From: Defluviitaleaceae bacterium
Lineage (GTDB): Bacteria; Bacillota; Clostridia; Lachnospirales; WQUN01
NCBI GenBank assembly: GCA_009786975.1
Contig: WRGX01000214.1
Span: 1-33,488 of the forward strand
DNA: 33,488 bases
Reading direction: 5' to 3'
Shown here: one piece after another, positions 184 to 30,144 of the stretch
Layout of the letters: every line of letters begins with the position of its first letter
Position numbering within the stretch: position 1 is the stretch's first letter
Program-made: the position numbers and the translations under genes
Notes under the pieces: generated by a model
Database searches by the model: none
What the model saw: the letters and a program-made list of their open reading frames with translations, nothing else
What the model was told of the DNA's origin: nothing

Positions 184-996
184 CTAAATTCCGATTTTCA
201 CGAAATTTCGCCCCTTTTTCGATACTCCGCCAACCTCCAGCAACCTGGCGCGTCCCAGCCCGCGCACCGAAATCAACGCGTTTTCGCCAACGTCTTTGTC
301 CGGACGCAAACAATTTTGATGATTTAGGTTCACGCGCCCGGCAGAAATCAGTTCGGCAGCCTTTGCGCGTGACAGCCCAAACGCCGCGCACAGCACCGCA
401 TCCAAGCGCAAAGAAGCAACGGTGTCGGTTTTAATTGTCAAATTTTCCTCACGGGCAGGCAGTTCGCAGATGGGGATTTCCGACACGGTCAGTCCGACGC
501 GCCCTGCCTTGGTAAGGTTTTCGGCGATGTATTTGCTGATTTCCGGCAGACATACAAGCGTGGCAAAATGTTTGCCGATTAAAATATCGCCGATTACGTC
601 GCGTTCGATTCCGAGTGCCATAAGTGCGCCCAAAATATCGCGATGACCGAGCTTGTCCTGCGGACGATGGGATATTTTTAACGCCGCAACGATTTCGTCC
701 CGCTCACACTTTTCGTCATTCGCTGAACGCACAAATTCCTGATGAAAATTGGCCGCCCGCGTTTCTCTCTTCGAATTTTCATACTTTCCCCAATCCGGAT
801 TCGTAAAAATTGCCCGCACTCGCTCCGCGCCATCAAATCCGCCGTCGAATGTTAAAATTACATCTCGCCTCAGGGAAGATTTTACCTCCTCGGCCTCTGC
901 GGGCGTGAGAAATTTCGACGCCGCATATCCCGTTCGGATGGCCTTTTTCGCCAAATCATCCATGCGCGCGCAAGACAGGGTACGGGTTTTATTCAT
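184..996 (-). CDS. ylmH: YlmH-like RNA-binding protein with C-terminal S4 domain
   Basis: 270-aa ORF; C-terminal S4 signature LRLDAVLCAAFGLSRAKAAELISAGRVNLN; central region YlmH-like (GHRDILGALMALGIERDVIGDI). Confidence 0.85.
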   Translation of the reverse strand: MNKTRTLSCARMDDLAKKAIRTGYAASKFLTPAEAEEVKSSLRRDVILTFDGGFDGAERVRAIFTNPDWGKYENSKRETRAANFHQEFVRSANDEKCERDEIVAALKISHRPQDKLGHRDILGALMALGIERDVIGDILIGKHFATLVCLPEISKYIAENLTKAGRVGLTVSEIPICELPAREENLTIKTDTVASLRLDAVLCAAFGLSRAKAAELISAGRVNLNHQNCLRPDKDVGENALISVRGLGRARLLEVGGVSKKGRNFVKIGI

Positions 997-3379
997 ATCG
1001 AGTCACCACCTGCAAATTCGTCCAATGCCCCGGAAACATTCGGCGATATTGTTCCGTAGCGAAACGACTGTCGATTAACAACACGATGCCTTCGTCGGAT
1101 TCGGTTCGTATTACGCGGCCGGCGGCTTGAAGCACTTTGTTCATGCCGGGATACATATAGGCAAATTCATAGCCTCGGCCGTTTTTTCGATTGAAATAGT
1201 CGCGAATTTGGTCTTGGCGCGGGTTTATCATGGGGATGCCGACGCTTATTATTATCGAGCCGATTAGTCGGTCGCCTTTTAAATCGATGCCCTCGGAAAA
1301 AATTCCGCCGAGTACGGTAAAGCCGACGAGGGTTTCGGGGTTGTCGGCAGAAAATCGCGCTAAGTAGGCGGCGCGTTCGTCTTCGGTCATGTCGCTGCGC
1401 TGGGGGAGGGTTTTTATTTCGGGATGGTTTTTGTGGAAAATATCCAAGACTTTGTCCATGTAATGATATGACGGGAAAAATACGAGGTAATTGCCTTTTT
1501 TCGCGGAAACCTCGGTGTGGATTGCGCCTGCGATTGGGGCGCAGCTGGCTTCGCGGTCGATGTATTTTGTGGAAATTCCGCTGTGTACGGTTATTTTCAG
1601 CTTTGCCGGGTCGAAAGGGGAGGGGAGTGAAATTGCTGTGTCGTCGGGGGTTCCGCCCAAAATTTCGCGGTAATAATCAAGCGGCATAAGCGTCGCGGAA
1701 AACAAAATCGAGGAAATTCCGCGCGATAATCCCGCGGCGATTACGGCGGACGGGTCGAGGCAAAAAAGCGTAATGGAAAAGTCGTTTCCGCGCGTTTCGT
1801 ACAAAGTCGTAAAATGCTCGTCGTACAGCTCGGAGATTAGAACGTACATATTTGCGTCGAAATAGAGGGTCAAAATATCGCCGTAGAGTTCGCTATTGGT
1901 CGCGGACAAAGAGCGTCCGCTATTTGCATTAATTTTCAGCCATTCGCCGGCGGATTGCATGAATGTTTCGACAAGTGCGAGAAAATCTTGCGGCTCGCCG
2001 TCGCGGATTTTTTTCATGCCGACGTTGATTTGTCGCAAAATTTTTCGGAGTTCTGCCGATTGCGGATTTTTGTCCTTGAGGTGCGTGCGAATATAGCCGA
2101 ACGCGCCTTTGCGCAGGCTTGCGGTGTACATGTCGCGCACGCGGTCGGCCAAATTGTGCGCTTCGTCGATTAGGAAAACGTACTCGTGCTTTTTGTTGTC
2201 ATCAAAAAATCTGCGCAAATACACCGACGGGTCGAAAACATGGTTGTAATCGCCGACAACAAGGTCGCAAAATAACGCCGCGTCAAGCGCGAATTCATGC
2301 GGACAAACGCTGTGCTTGTGCGCATATTCGGCGATTTCGGCGGGGGTAATTAAGTCGGATGCGTTGTTTATTAAATCCCACAGTGCGTCGTTTATGCGGT
2401 CGAAATGTCCGCGCGCGTTGGGGCAATAATCGGGCGTGCAGCGCGCCAAGCGCGCGGTGGGTGCCGCGAACGTTTCCTGCGGCACCGACGAAACTTCCTC
2501 GATGCCGCACGTTCCGTCGAATCCGGACGTGCGCGGGCAAATTTTATCCTTCGCGCGAAGCGTTACCGATTTAAATCGAAGGCCGCCCGCCGCCAAATGC
2601 TTTACCGCGTCTTCCGCAACGGTTCGCGTGATGGTTTTAGCGGTAAGATAAAAAATTTTTTCGCATTTACCCTCTCCCATTGCTTTAACCGCCGGAAAAA
2701 GTGCGGAAAGTGTTTTGCCGATTCCCGTCGGCGCGGCGGCATACAGATTTTTCCGCGCGGAAACAGCGCGATACGCCATCGCCGCGAATTCACGCTGTCC
2801 CTTACGCCACGAAAACGGAAACTCCGCCGCGCGGCACGACGCGTCGCGAATTTCCTTCCAATCCCGCTCGAACCGCAACCACGCGCCGTATTTATGTAAA
2901 AGGTCGGCAAAAAAATCTTCAAGCTCCGCCGCTGTAAATTCAAATTCATATTTGCGGGTTTCCTCGGTGTCGAGCTGAAAATACGTCAACTGTACCGTCA
3001 TTTTTTCCGGCGGCGCGTCTTGCATTTTCATATACATATAGGCATAACATTTGCCCTGCCCAAGGTGCTGTTCGCGCTGATTATAAATCAAATCCAGCGG
3101 CAGAGCAGTCGTTTTAATTTCGTCGATTACAACCCCGCCGGGCGCAGAAATTATGCCGTCCGCGCGGCCTTGAATTATTACGGGGATTTGGGCGATTTCC
3201 GTTTCCAGTTTAAGCGTAACTTCCTTTTTATAATGCTCGCCCGCCGTTTTTTGTATCTTGCGATGCGCCGCCGCCCCGCGATGCATCGATGACGAATCAT
3301 TAAAACGATTGTCGATATCGCCGCAACGCAGGATTAAATCGACTATTTTGTGTACGGAAATTTTTATGGGTGATGTCAT
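989..3379 (-). CDS. Rad3/DinG-family ATP-dependent DNA helicase with N-terminal PD-(D/E)XK (RecB-like) nuclease domain
   Basis: Walker A AAPTGIGKTLSALFPA, DEAH box (FLIDEAHNLADR), Fe-S cysteine region (KICPR...CTPDYCP), C-terminal QAAGRVIRTESDEG; N-terminal GRADGII...VVIDEIKTT...QGKCYAYMY nuclease-like motif. Confidence 0.88.
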   Translation of the reverse strand: MTSPIKISVHKIVDLILRCGDIDNRFNDSSSMHRGAAAHRKIQKTAGEHYKKEVTLKLETEIAQIPVIIQGRADGIISAPGGVVIDEIKTTALPLDLIYNQREQHLGQGKCYAYMYMKMQDAPPEKMTVQLTYFQLDTEETRKYEFEFTAAELEDFFADLLHKYGAWLRFERDWKEIRDASCRAAEFPFSWRKGQREFAAMAYRAVSARKNLYAAAPTGIGKTLSALFPAVKAMGEGKCEKIFYLTAKTITRTVAEDAVKHLAAGGLRFKSVTLRAKDKICPRTSGFDGTCGIEEVSSVPQETFAAPTARLARCTPDYCPNARGHFDRINDALWDLINNASDLITPAEIAEYAHKHSVCPHEFALDAALFCDLVVGDYNHVFDPSVYLRRFFDDNKKHEYVFLIDEAHNLADRVRDMYTASLRKGAFGYIRTHLKDKNPQSAELRKILRQINVGMKKIRDGEPQDFLALVETFMQSAGEWLKINANSGRSLSATNSELYGDILTLYFDANMYVLISELYDEHFTTLYETRGNDFSITLFCLDPSAVIAAGLSRGISSILFSATLMPLDYYREILGGTPDDTAISLPSPFDPAKLKITVHSGISTKYIDREASCAPIAGAIHTEVSAKKGNYLVFFPSYHYMDKVLDIFHKNHPEIKTLPQRSDMTEDERAAYLARFSADNPETLVGFTVLGGIFSEGIDLKGDRLIGSIIISVGIPMINPRQDQIRDYFNRKNGRGYEFAYMYPGMNKVLQAAGRVIRTESDEGIVLLIDSRFATEQYRRMFPGHWTNLQVVTRYE
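2441..2465 (-). repeat. Family A repeat core, in frame inside the helicase Fe-S loop
   Basis: GCGCGCCAAGCGCGCGGTGGGTGCC, 23/25 identical to the array unit start; encodes (minus) ...APTARLAR, the same frame as array peptide VPTARLARFF. Confidence 0.75.
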
Positions 3380-8570: not shown

Positions 8571-8576
8571 CCATAA

Positions 8577-8615
8577 AAAAAAGAGTCGGCGAGTGACACT
8601 CGCCGACTCTTTTTT
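8577..8615. repeat. Family B palindromic repeat, copy 1
   Basis: A-tract + GAGTCGGCGAGTG-A-CACTCGCCGACTC (perfect 13-bp arms, 8583-8609) + T-tract. Confidence 0.95.
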
Positions 8616-14220: not shown

Positions 14221-14262
14221 AAAAAAAGAGTCGGCGAGTGTCACTCGCCGACTCTTTTTTTT
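14221..14262. repeat. Family B palindromic repeat, copy 2
   Basis: A7 + GAGTCGGCGAGTG-T-CACTCGCCGACTC (14228-14254) + T8. Confidence 0.95.
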
Positions 14263-14271
14263 CGTGCTCCG

Positions 14272-14314
14272 GGAAACTGCTTTCGGCTTCGAGGGAATGC
14301 GTCGCCACCGACAA
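14272..14314 (-). repeat. Family A repeat, truncated copy
   Basis: GGAAACTGCTTTCGGCTTCGAGGGAATGCGTCGCCACCGACAA, near-identical to 26206-26247; lacks the GCGCGC hairpin end. Confidence 0.75.
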
Positions 14315-22503: not shown

Positions 22504-22739
22504 GCGCGCCAAGCGCGCGGTGGGCACCGGGGACATGTGTTGGCGGCGGCGCATTCCCTCGAAGCCGGGAGCAGTTTTCCGGCGTATAAAAAAGCGCGCC
22601 AAGCGCGCGGTGGGCACCGGGGACATGTGTTGGCGGCGGCACGTTCCCTCGAAGCCGGGAGCAGTTTTCCGGCGTATAAAAAAGCGCGCCAAGCGCGCGG
22701 TGGGCACCGGGGACACGTGTTGGCGGCGGCGCATTCCTA
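22504..22739 (+). repeat. Family A repeat: three tandem units with 90-bp period (third internally truncated)
   Basis: Units begin at 22504, 22594 and 22684: GCGCGCCAAGCGCGCGGTGGGCACCGGGGACATGTGTTGGCGGCGGCGCATTCCCTCGAAGCCGGGAGCAGTTTTCCGGCGTATAAAAAA. Confidence 0.97.
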
Positions 22740-22753
22740 GCGTATAAAAAAAA

Positions 22754-22782
22754 TGAGTCGGCGAGTGACACTCGCCGACTCA
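22754..22782. repeat. Family B palindromic repeat, copy 3
   Basis: TGAGTCGGCGAGTG-A-CACTCGCCGACTCA with A-tracts on both sides. Confidence 0.95.
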
Positions 22783-22822
22783 AAAAAAACACCGAGACTT
22801 ATACATAATCCCTTGCATTTTA

Positions 22823-26001: not shown

Positions 26002-26042
26002 AAAAATCGATGATGTTAGTGTTACTAACATCATCGATTTTT
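26002..26042 (+). terminator. Family E palindrome acting as a likely terminator of the MCP gene
   Basis: AAAAATCGATGATGTTAGT-gtt-ACTAACATCATCGATTTTT, perfect 19-bp arms, T-rich 3' side, 21 nt after the stop codon. Confidence 0.85.
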
Positions 26043-26053
26043 TTGTGGGCCGA

Positions 26054-26128
26054 GGAATTGCTTCCGGCTTCGAGGGAATGCGTTGCCGCCGACATGTGTC
26101 CCCGGTGCCTACCGCGCGCTTGGCGCGC
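26054..26128 (-). repeat. Family A repeat (inverted relative to the 22.5-kb array)
   Basis: GGAATTGCTTCCGGCTTCGAGGGAATGCGTTGCCGCCGACATGTGTCCCCGGTGCCTACCGCGCGCTTGGCGCGC. Confidence 0.92.
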
Positions 26129-26152: not shown

Positions 26153-26196
26153 AAAAAAAACGAGTCGGCGAGTGACACTCGCCGACTCGTTTTTTT
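26153..26196. repeat. Family B palindromic repeat, copy 4
   Basis: A8 + CGAGTCGGCGAGTG-A-CACTCGCCGACTCG + T7. Confidence 0.95.
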
Positions 26197-26205
26197 CAGC
26201 CAACA

Positions 26206-26281
26206 GGAAACTGCTTTCGGCTTCGAGGGAATGTGTCGCCGCCGACATGTGTCCCCGGTTCCCACTGCGCGCTTGGCGCGC
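26206..26281 (-). repeat. Family A repeat
   Basis: GGAAACTGCTTTCGGCTTCGAGGGAATGTGTCGCCGCCGACATGTGTCCCCGGTTCCCACTGCGCGCTTGGCGCGC. Confidence 0.92.
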
Positions 26282-26318: not shown

Positions 26319-28448
26319 GTGAAACTGGTGATTTTTGTGAGGAAAAAGAAAAATGTTTTTGATGTTTTAGTTGGCTCGGCGTTGATGGTTATTGTTGGAA
26401 TTATGCCGCTTATTGCAAGGTTGTCGTGGCGGCCGCTTCCTCCGGAGCTTTCAAATTTGCTTCACGGCGAGGGGTACGTGGACTTTTTGTCGTATTGGAA
26501 GGGTATTTTTGTGCTTATTCCCGCGTTTGCAATCGCGCTTTTCTTTATCGGCGACATTGTTACGCGTGGGAAAATGCCGAATTTGCGCGAATTTTTTAGG
26601 AAACCGTATGTGGTTTTTTCATGCGTGTTTCTTATTTTTATGCTTATTTCTGCCGTGTTTGCCACGTTTTCGGGGCTTGCACACACGGCGTGGCTGGGCA
26701 CGTATCACCGCGACGAGGGCGCGTTTATGTGGATTGCGTATTTTATCGTCTTTTTCGCGGCGATACATTTTGCGCGTGAAATTGACAATGCGAAGCATGT
26801 TTTATACGCGCTTGCGTTTTCGTCAATAATTATGGGCGTGATTGGGATAAGCCAGTTTGCGGGCGCGGATTTTTTCGGAACGGGCGTGGCGGCGTGGCTT
26901 ACAACGGTGGGGACGCCGTTTTTCGACCAACGCCACGAGATTGATATCGCGTTCGAAATCGCGTACGGCACGCTTTTTAACCCGAACACTTTTGGCAAAT
27001 ACACGGCGATGGCGAGTCCGATTTTGCTTGTTTCCGCCGTAACGCTGTTTATTTCCGCGGCGCGCCAAGCGCGAATTGGACACCGAAGCGGCGTGTCGAG
27101 TGCGACGAATTCTCTCAAATCCGGATTCGGGGCCGGATTCAATGTCCGCCTTATCGGCGTCGCCGCGATTGTTTTTGTTGCGGGATTACTTATGCTTTTC
27201 GGCGTTTTTGCAAGCAGCTCGCTTGGCGGATTAATTGGAATTATCACCGCGCTGGGCGTGCTTGTTGTGACTTTGCTTGCATTCGGAGTAGCTTTTTTGC
27301 GACGTTCAGAAGAAAAAATTTCGACGGCACAAAAATTTACGATTAAAATTGCGGCGGCATCGTCGGTCGGTTTGATTTTAATTTTCGGTTTTACAATCCT
27401 GTTTTTCCCGCCTCTTAACGAGCGCGTGACGTTTTTAGTTGAGCGAATCGGGCGCGAAATGGCCGCCGACACGACGGAAATGCAGAACTATGTGTTTGAC
27501 GAAAACATGATGACAGTGTACGGCGAAGACGGAAAAATTTTGAGCATGACGGTGCATGGGCGCGAGGGCGATTGGCTGACCGTGCGCGACGGAGCGGGCA
27601 ACGTTGTTCCGCCCGCAAGCCGAACCGAACCGCTCCCGCAGCACCCCGACGAAATTGACGCGGGACTGCCGCCCGAGCCGGCGGTTTACACCTTCGAAAT
27701 TCCGGGCTATCGCACAGTGACAATTCGCCACTCGCCGCAAAACTTCTCGTATCATCACGCACGCGGCGGCATGGCATTTTTCATGGCGTATCAAAACGGA
27801 CGCCTCCACGGCATACACGGCGTTTTGCACATGGACAGAATTTTTGACGTTCGCCCCGGCCAAACCCTCGATTTGCACCGCGAAACCCCTGCATGGGGCT
27901 TCGAAGGCCGCGAAACATGGGGTTCAAGTCGCGGATATATTTGGTCGCGTTCCTTGCCGATGATGCCCGCGCGCACAATAATCGGCAGCGGTCCCGACTC
28001 CTTCATCAATGTTTTCCCGAACGGCGACATGGTTGCGGGCTGGCGATACTTCAACAATCCCTATCAAATCGTCGATAAAGCGCACAACTTTTTCATACAA
28101 ACATGGATAACAACCGGTGGAGTTTCCGCCCTCGCCCTGCTCGCACTCTTCGGATACTATTTATTCACAACACTTCGCTCGTTAATAAAATCCAAAGACG
28201 AACCCATTTTTTCGTTCGGCCTGCGCCTCGGCCTGCTTGCAGGCGTCGCCGCGTACTGCATGGCGGGAATGGCAACCGATACGACAATCGGCTCTACGGG
28301 CGTGTTTTTTGTTCTGCTGGGCGTGGGTTACGGGCTTAACGGCTTCGCGGCTAAGACCTTGGGGGCTGTGCCCCTCTCGCGCGACGAGCGCGCCGGCCGG
28401 ATGACCGGGTCGGCCCCATCCCCCCGCAAGGGAACACAGTCCTCTTGA
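26319..28448 (+). CDS. O-antigen ligase / Wzy-like multi-pass membrane protein
   Basis: 709 aa, many TM segments; LFNPNTFGKYTAMASPILL, GSGPDSFINVFPNGD, DKAHNFFIQTWITTGGVSALALLALFGYYLF; RBS not clear. Confidence 0.82.
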   Translation: MKLVIFVRKKKNVFDVLVGSALMVIVGIMPLIARLSWRPLPPELSNLLHGEGYVDFLSYWKGIFVLIPAFAIALFFIGDIVTRGKMPNLREFFRKPYVVFSCVFLIFMLISAVFATFSGLAHTAWLGTYHRDEGAFMWIAYFIVFFAAIHFAREIDNAKHVLYALAFSSIIMGVIGISQFAGADFFGTGVAAWLTTVGTPFFDQRHEIDIAFEIAYGTLFNPNTFGKYTAMASPILLVSAVTLFISAARQARIGHRSGVSSATNSLKSGFGAGFNVRLIGVAAIVFVAGLLMLFGVFASSSLGGLIGIITALGVLVVTLLAFGVAFLRRSEEKISTAQKFTIKIAAASSVGLILIFGFTILFFPPLNERVTFLVERIGREMAADTTEMQNYVFDENMMTVYGEDGKILSMTVHGREGDWLTVRDGAGNVVPPASRTEPLPQHPDEIDAGLPPEPAVYTFEIPGYRTVTIRHSPQNFSYHHARGGMAFFMAYQNGRLHGIHGVLHMDRIFDVRPGQTLDLHRETPAWGFEGRETWGSSRGYIWSRSLPMMPARTIIGSGPDSFINVFPNGDMVAGWRYFNNPYQIVDKAHNFFIQTWITTGGVSALALLALFGYYLFTTLRSLIKSKDEPIFSFGLRLGLLAGVAAYCMAGMATDTTIGSTGVFFVLLGVGYGLNGFAAKTLGAVPLSRDERAGRMTGSAPSPRKGTQSS
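27058..27140 (+). repeat. Diverged family A repeat, in frame inside the O-antigen-ligase-like CDS
   Basis: GCGCGCCAAGCGCGAATTGGACACCGAAGCGGCGTGTCGAGTGCGACGAATTCTCTCAAATCCGG; encodes ARQARIGHRSGVSSATNSLKSGFGAGF versus array frame ARQARGGHRGHVLAAARSLEAGSSF. Confidence 0.65.
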
Positions 28449-28519: not shown

Positions 28520-29347
28520 GTGCGTGAAATTTTTTCGCGTTACGGTTTGCGTGCGAAGAAGAAGTTGGGGCAGAATTTTTTAATTGACGCACATGTGCTT
28601 GGTAAAATAATCGCCGCGGCAAAAATTGAGCCGGGCGATTTTGTTTTGGAAATCGGGCCGGGCATCGGCGGCATGACGCAGGCACTTTTGGCGGCGGGCG
28701 CGAATGTCGGTGCGGTCGAACTCGACAAACAGCTCGTGCCGATTTTGGAGGAGCTTTTCGCAGGGGAAAATTTTCGCGTGATACAAGGCGACATATTAAA
28801 AATCAACCTAAACGACAGTTTTTTTTCAAAAAAAATCGCCCCCGAGAGCTTAAAAAAACCCAAAGCCGTCGCGAATCTTCCTTATTATATAACCACGCCG
28901 GTGATTTTCGCGCTTTTGGAAAGCGGTGCGTTTGAGTCGATAACGGTGATGGTGCAGAAGGAAGTCGCGCGGCGGTTAAGCGCGGGACCGGGTACGAAGG
29001 ATTACGGTTCGCTGTCGCTTGCGGTGCAGTATCACGCGGACGCGACCCTTGTTGCCAATGTGCCGTCGAATTGCTTTATGCCGCGCCCGGCGGTGGATTC
29101 TGCGGTTGTGCGGCTGGATATTTTGCCTGCGCCGCGCGTCGGCGTCGACCGTGAAAAATTGTTCAAGACGATTCACGCGGCGTTCGGCAAGCGGCGCAAG
29201 ACATTACTTAATGCGCTGGATTCGGAATTTGCCTGCGAAAAGACCGAGCTTGCGGAGATTTTGCGCGCTTGCGACATCGACCCGCAAACACGCGGCGAAG
29301 TCCTGAACATTTTCGAATTTGCACGATTATCGGAGGCGTTGCCATGA
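28520..29347 (+). CDS. rsmA: 16S rRNA dimethyladenosine transferase RsmA (KsgA); start uncertain (annotated ORF opens at 28445)
   Basis: AKKKLGQNFLIDAHVLGKI, VLEIGPGIGGMTQALL, VANLPYYITTPVIF, VQKEVARRLSAGPGTKDYG; upstream residues MNRDAWASSPPSGGRPIPN do not look like the family; in-frame GTG at 28520. Confidence 0.92.
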   Translation: MREIFSRYGLRAKKKLGQNFLIDAHVLGKIIAAAKIEPGDFVLEIGPGIGGMTQALLAAGANVGAVELDKQLVPILEELFAGENFRVIQGDILKINLNDSFFSKKIAPESLKKPKAVANLPYYITTPVIFALLESGAFESITVMVQKEVARRLSAGPGTKDYGSLSLAVQYHADATLVANVPSNCFMPRPAVDSAVVRLDILPAPRVGVDREKLFKTIHAAFGKRRKTLLNALDSEFACEKTELAEILRACDIDPQTRGEVLNIFEFARLSEALP

Positions 29348-30144
29348 ATGCGTTTACATTAAAAATCATCGCGCTTGTCGCTATGTTTATCGACCATATC
29401 GGCATCGTTATGCCCGAATTTTTTGGGCTTTCGCCGGGGATGAATATTTTTCGCGTAATCGGGCGGGTTTCCTTTCCGATTTTTGTGTACCTGATTGCCG
29501 AAGGTTTTCGTCACACAAAAAGCCCGGAAAAATTCCTTTTGCGGCTCGGCGCGTTCGCCGTAATTTCCCAAATCCCCTTCGACCTTGCCTTCAACGCGCA
29601 AATAAATTTTTTGGCGGATACCAACATCTTTTACACGCTGTTCCTCGGCGGCGCGGCTATTTTCGCTTACGATTACATCGCGCGCGGCGAGCGAAGCGAA
29701 CCTTACCCGCGCCACCGAGGACATGTGTCGCGGGCAACGCGTTCCCTTAAAACCGGAGACAGCGAATTTCCAAAAGGCTGGCGCGGGCTTGTCGCGTTTC
29801 TTCCCGCGTGCGCATTTTTAATCCTCGCGGAGGTTTTTTCCGCCGATTACGGCGGGTACGGCGTGGCATTTATCTTTTTTATGTACTTGATAAAGCCGCT
29901 GAAATGGCGGCTTGCGGCGATGGCTTCCCTGTGCCTTTGGCAATATGAGGGTACAATTCGCGCTATTTTTGAAGGGCACGACGTCCCCGCAATTTTTATC
30001 TGGATGATTCCCGTGACCCTTATTCCCGTTGTGTTTTTCGCGCTTTACAACGGCAAGCGCGGACCCGGCTTGAAGTGGCTTTTTTACGCGGCGTACCCCG
30101 CGCATTTGCTTATTTTGTTTGCGGTTGTTTCGTGGGTTTTGTAA
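29344..30144 (+). CDS. TraX-like membrane protein
   Basis: MNAFTLKIIALVAMFIDHIGIVM...FRVIGRVSFPIFVYLIAEGFRHTKSPEKFLLRLGAFAVISQIPFDLAF. Confidence 0.85.
   Translation: MNAFTLKIIALVAMFIDHIGIVMPEFFGLSPGMNIFRVIGRVSFPIFVYLIAEGFRHTKSPEKFLLRLGAFAVISQIPFDLAFNAQINFLADTNIFYTLFLGGAAIFAYDYIARGERSEPYPRHRGHVSRATRSLKTGDSEFPKGWRGLVAFLPACAFLILAEVFSADYGGYGVAFIFFMYLIKPLKWRLAAMASLCLWQYEGTIRAIFEGHDVPAIFIWMIPVTLIPVVFFALYNGKRGPGLKWLFYAAYPAHLLILFAVVSWVL
29708..29767 (+). repeat. Diverged family A repeat, in frame inside the TraX-like CDS
   Basis: CGCCACCGAGGACATGTGTCGCGGGCAACGCGTTCCCTTAAAACCGGAGACAGC aligns with GGGCACCGGGGACATGTGTTGGCGGCGGCGCATTCCCTCGAAGCCGGGAGCAG; encodes RHRGHVSRATRSLKTGDSEF. Confidence 0.75.

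Follow-up and report, generated by a model that had tools for sequence, protein, structure and literature searches.

Palindromic elements that code for protein are familiar chiefly from Rickettsia and Wolbachia, both of which are intracellular and have reduced genomes. The Rickettsia palindromic elements (RPEs) are short dispersed hairpin-forming repeats that occur in frame within conserved protein genes, where they are tolerated, and they have been treated as selfish (PMC2229807, PMC10969869); the RPE-bearing guanylate kinase of Rickettsia is both translated and active (PMC2229807). Some MITEs, namely ERIC and the 107-bp Correia element, are also known as in-frame fusions (PMC2229807). The palindromic amphipathic repeat coding elements (PARCEL) are coding tandem repeats with dyad symmetry, described from Mollicutes among others, which carry a 25-aa motif with conserved hydrophobic residues and are located in ORFs lacking assigned functions (PMC2996958). 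Here a repeat designated family A is examined in the window (the whole stretch of DNA analysed, 33,488 nt) and in related genomes, taking as the starting point a copy located inside a helicase gene.

The host gene (989-3379, minus strand) encodes an XPD/DinG-type Fe-S DNA helicase of 796 aa with matches to the Pfam families Helicase_C_2, DEAD_2 and PDDEXK_1, the N-terminus being a PD-(D/E)XK domain that accompanies the XPD/DinG helicase core. The motifs GIGKT (Walker A), DEAH and QAAGRVIR (motif VI) are intact, as are the four Fe-S cysteines C281, C314, C319 and C359, which occupy invariant columns in the orthologue alignment. The family A copy (2441-2528, plus strand) runs antisense to the gene and is read in frame as SGFDGTCGIEEVSSVPQETFAAPTARLAR between the first and the second Fe-S cysteines, the insert-derived peptide including SGFDGTCGIEEVSSVPQETFAAPTAR. 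It was recovered at 20.3 bits (nhmmer, E=1.3e-4 over 0.41 Mb) with a profile built from 76 near-full copies from which the helicase copy had been excluded, and it covers model positions 1-67 with about 21 nt of extra sequence in its middle. The preliminary description had reported that positions 2441-2465 are identical at 23 of 25 nucleotides to the start of the family A unit, and that the same frame gives APTARLAR in the helicase and VPTARLAR in the array; both observations were reproduced, the first with the unit at 22504. The match that it had placed in the first 25 nt is real but more extensive, spanning nearly the whole 65-nt core up to position 2528. No other in-gene copy in the window is as diverged, and taken alone this one is only moderately above the threshold.

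The comparison with orthologues, which were matched in 19 of the 41 genomes searched plus 80 genome contigs, indicates that the segment is an addition to the helicase. Almost all orthologues read KIC-x6-C-x4-C, and in a 40-sequence alignment the spacing between the first two cysteines is 6 residues in 36 sequences and 7, 8 and 10 in one each, versus 32 in the window (Cys281-Cys314), while the C2-C3 and C3-C4 spacings are essentially constant. The loop of XPD/DinG Fe-S helicases thus has about 6 residues and that of the window helicase 32; the preliminary description had given a much shorter spacing for relatives and had considered that orthologues might carry a loop of similar length, but the loop is short in all 39 of them. 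It had also suggested looking for a close relative lacking the insert, and such a relative exists: the nearest one (L072 in genome G003, 75% identical) lacks it and reads KICPAHREGQACTPDSCP where the window reads KICPRTSGFDGTCGIEEVSSVPQETFAAPTARLARCTPDYCP, therefore 24-26 residues have been added. A predicted structure, likewise suggested, gave an AlphaFold model with a mean pLDDT of 87.5, in which residues 285-312, covering the insert, form the longest stretch with pLDDT below 50; according to this model, the insert is the longest disordered segment of the protein. The best Foldseek match of the model is the Finegoldia magna DinG (PDB 9kqh), which shares with the window helicase the fold, the motifs and the four cysteines. 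The aligned stretches of the two proteins stop at residue 283 and restart at 287, implying that the loop of the F. magna enzyme is short as well.

Two additional in-frame copies were detected in the window. One of them (27060-27129, plus strand, E=6.6e-12) lies within a gene for an O-antigen-ligase-like membrane protein (26319-28448) and is read as ARQARIGHRSGVSSATNSLKSGFG, and the orthologues of this gene in G009, G003, G001 and G008 do not contain it. The other (29688-29771, plus strand, E=3.1e-8) is read as GERSEPYPRHRGHVSRATRSLKTGDSE in a TraX-like gene (29269-30144) whose nearest orthologue (L219, 75% identical) has 13 fewer residues at this site and lacks the repeat sequence. The intergenic copies comprise a tandem array of 2.6 units with an exact 90-nt period (22504-22737, plus strand; TRF and repeat search), two full-length units on the minus strand (26039-26128, nhmmer E=9.2e-22, and 26192-26281, nhmmer E=7.6e-24) and a partial unit corresponding to model positions 35-90 (14258-14313, minus strand, nhmmer E=2.5e-12). 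A second repeat, family B, is present at 8576-8615, 14221-14260, 22748-22787 and 26155-26194; it is a near-perfect, terminator-like 27-nt palindrome (GAGTCGGCGAGTGNCACTCGCCGACTC) placed between A and T runs. Of 48 family B copies in the genome sample, 27 had a family A copy no more than 60 nt away, where 5% would be expected, and one occurs in frame within the gene for the 23S rRNA methyltransferase RlmD (SRRVSLADSF).

The family A consensus is 90 nt long and contains a conserved core of 65 nt; units occur alone or are repeated head to tail with a period of exactly 90 nt. The consensus is predicted to fold into three hairpins (z=-3.9 as DNA and -4.3 as RNA); across 50 copies the first hairpin was paired in 99.7% of cells and the second in 90%, with modest base-pair covariation. 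No terminal inverted repeats were recognised, as the unit begins with GCGCGCC and ends with CCCATAAAAAA, which are not complementary, and no pairing between the two ends of the 90-nt unit was found in the folds. Neither was a target-site duplication recognised, and the junctions examined in the helicase and RlmD fall in variable loops. That the core is open in all six frames was considered as a special feature and discarded, since the same holds for 13% of base-shuffled and 32% of dinucleotide-shuffled sequences. A first DNA search returned 92 copies and missed known diverged ones (e.g., those at 2441 and 27060 in the window), for which reason profile searches were adopted; these detected about 131 copies in 0.41 Mb (0.33 per kb), a sample made up of the window and parts of the longest contigs and representing about 18% of the genome, which extrapolates to roughly 700 copies in the genome. 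Of the 41 genomes searched, the source genome (G000), G003 and G009 carry the element and G002 has traces of it, these four belonging to one genus, in which G001 and G004-G008 are free of it; in the sister species G003 it is a diverged version with a unit of about 63 nt. A full copy adjoining a family B palindrome was also observed on a 7.5-kb inovirus-like contig encoding a Zot/pI assembly ATPase (L231:3139-3228, minus strand), which suggests that the element can ride on phage, a possible vehicle between cells.

With RPEs, family A shares the in-frame insertion into conserved protein genes whose orthologues lack the insert. The RPE, however, is a single stem-loop 105-146 bp long that bears a terminal inverted repeat of 12 bp, whereas family A is a unit of 65/90 nt with three hairpins; in addition, family A differs in its host phylum (Firmicutes), in the many orientation and phase combinations that it uses and in the formation of head-to-tail arrays within genes (three copies in RlmD, five in dihydrofolate reductase, DHFR). 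Because its architecture differs in the three hairpins, the lack of terminal inverted repeats and the tandem growth, family A is called RPE-like in behaviour and is not classified as an RPE, the likeness being drawn from the published description of how RPEs behave. Family A resembles REP/RAYT elements and GTAG/CGTC-tagged palindromes in being small, palindromic, high-copy and often clustered, but it has no GTAG/CGTC end and is abundant in genes, and a Y1 (RAYT/IS200) transposase (PF01797) was not detected in the element-bearing genomes G000 (92% complete), G003 and G009, control genomes being positive. RAYT was consequently rejected as the mobiliser in this genome. Like the MITEs (ERIC, Correia, RUP, BOX), family A is small and apparently non-autonomous; unlike them it lacks terminal inverted repeats, and a target-site duplication was not recognised. 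Finally, it produces coding tandem repeats with dyad symmetry, as PARCEL does, though in this case a DNA element interrupts known housekeeping enzymes and does so in several frames.

The insertion into genes is not restricted to the window, and the helicase copy is one among dozens of in-frame cases across the genome. Of the about 131 sampled copies, 34 are flanked on either side by coding sequence that shares their open frame, with roughly 30 lying in frame inside genes. In-gene classification (based on the codon usage of the flanks) and gene calling around the copies are heuristic, and exact counts are approximate; most copies in G000 are not inside genes. The in-gene copies use all six orientation/phase combinations. 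In both species taken together, 51 clusters are flanked on either side by coding sequence of the same strand, and 46 of these keep the frame and leave it open, whereas random lengths would do so in one third of cases (p=4e-17). The named hosts in G000 include PriA, RecN, PurH, RlmD, Ogg, MurJ, NspC, an AmmeMemoRadiSam enzyme and a TarA-like glycosyltransferase, and those in G003 include dihydrofolate reductase, DNA polymerase III delta', UvrC, TrmK, a UvrD/AddA-like helicase-nuclease and a short-chain dehydrogenase. In alignments with relatives the insert is cleanly absent from PriA, RlmD and the O-antigen ligase, and in NspC and MurJ the same loop holds different inserts; presence or absence among relatives was also compared for RecN.

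Several of these genes contain more than one unit. RlmD bears two separate repeat blocks (L151:7365-7634 and L151:8220-8537), one of which, with three tandem copies, is located directly after the SAM-binding motif. The dihydrofolate reductase of G003 contains five tandem in-frame units (L209:3278-3553), amounting to about 92 extra residues, and a nucleotidyltransferase-family gene (PRK13670; L143:15026-15629) has three separate family A inserts in two orientations. Among the in-gene copies of G000, 27 have the orientation of the gene and 7 the opposite one (p=0.0008), and the helicase copy belongs to this minority.

Altogether, it is very likely that the helicase insert is a copy of a high-copy, hairpin-forming and apparently non-autonomous element whose tolerated in-gene copies would be translated as mostly disordered segments, with a behaviour similar to that of RPEs. 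The element may be copied to new sites by transposition or another copying process. Insertion would be more or less indiscriminate, and selection would purge gene-breaking copies, leaving in-frame survivors in tolerant loops; persistence within a gene would thus demand a length and frame that leave the protein open as well as a loop that accepts the extra sequence. The surviving inserts would be translated as flexible, mostly disordered additional segments. The insert in the helicase is probably translated and the enzyme probably still works. The element is best read as selfish DNA.

Other explanations were weighed against this one. It is unlikely, though conceivable, that a dedicated process spreads the element and amplifies it within essential genes by lengths exactly divisible by three (about 63 and 90 nt), so that a single bacterial lineage would keep enlarging its proteome with new peptide segments; in an extreme form of this proposal the segments would be skipped or removed and the enzymes would stay active. 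That the inserts represent a recruited peptide domain with a selected function at the protein level, such as nucleic-acid binding, and spread by usefulness is quite improbable: they are richer in Arg (12% vs 7%) and in His than the rest of the same proteins, and the same-strand bias would fit such a domain, but the six orientation/phase combinations yield unrelated peptides, the hosts are as diverse as MurJ and the O-antigen ligase or PurH and DHFR, and most copies in this genome lie outside genes.

The helicase loop could also be an ordinary lineage-specific expansion that resembles the GC-rich repeat by chance or through codon usage, a reading to which the diverged middle of the copy, the 21-nt gap needed to align it and the small variation in loop length among relatives (6-10 residues) lend some support. 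Nevertheless, when the codon order of the helicase gene was shuffled 1000 times (2.4 Mb), the best score was 10.1 bits vs 20.3 for the copy, so codon usage, which the preliminary description had raised as a possible cause, can be rejected. Moreover, an exact 21-mer, GCGCGCCAAGCGCGCGGTGGG, occurs at 2441, 22504, 22594 and 22684 and was absent from all of 100 dinucleotide-shuffled versions of the window, the two ends of the core both match, at the very place where the orthologue alignment shows the insertion, and there are many similar in-gene cases. Chance is already contradicted and we consider it very improbable; together with the short loops of the orthologues, the codon-shuffle result supports the original reading of an in-frame family A repeat in the Fe-S loop that is absent from relatives.

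Removal of the segment after transcription, or its bypassing by ribosomes, as in self-splicing or translational bypassing, would give a protein without the insert. The stable RNA hairpins of the element and the proximity of some inserts to catalytic sites (after the SAM motif in RlmD, in the Fe-S loop of the helicase) could be accommodated by this mechanism, which is nonetheless highly unlikely: no Rfam family was matched in the window, the open frames that are kept would be needless if the segment were removed, the inserts are located at variable loops and the Rickettsia guanylate kinase is translated and active with its RPE (PMC2229807). Chimeric joins at repeats are conceivable in a fragmented metagenome-assembled genome of 219 contigs, some of which end inside repeats, but with the frame kept in 46 of 51 cases, in-gene copies that are diverged and not identical, and the same pattern in the independent MAG G003, an assembly artefact has a negligible probability.

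The open-access literature searched contains no report of such elements in termite-gut Firmicutes, nor in Firmicutes. Based on bin naming and neighbouring hits, the habitat of the host is probably the termite gut. The behaviour known from RPEs is here encountered in Firmicutes, with many copies of the element and in genes that include those for DHFR, UvrC, PriA and PurH. For annotation purposes, the inserts account for odd gaps in domain matches in these genomes, and the dozens of natural pairs of proteins with and without an insert provide material for probing which protein loops accept arbitrary sequence. The occurrence of RPE-like behaviour in this phylum suggests that selfish DNA is turned into protein sequence by a recurrent route.
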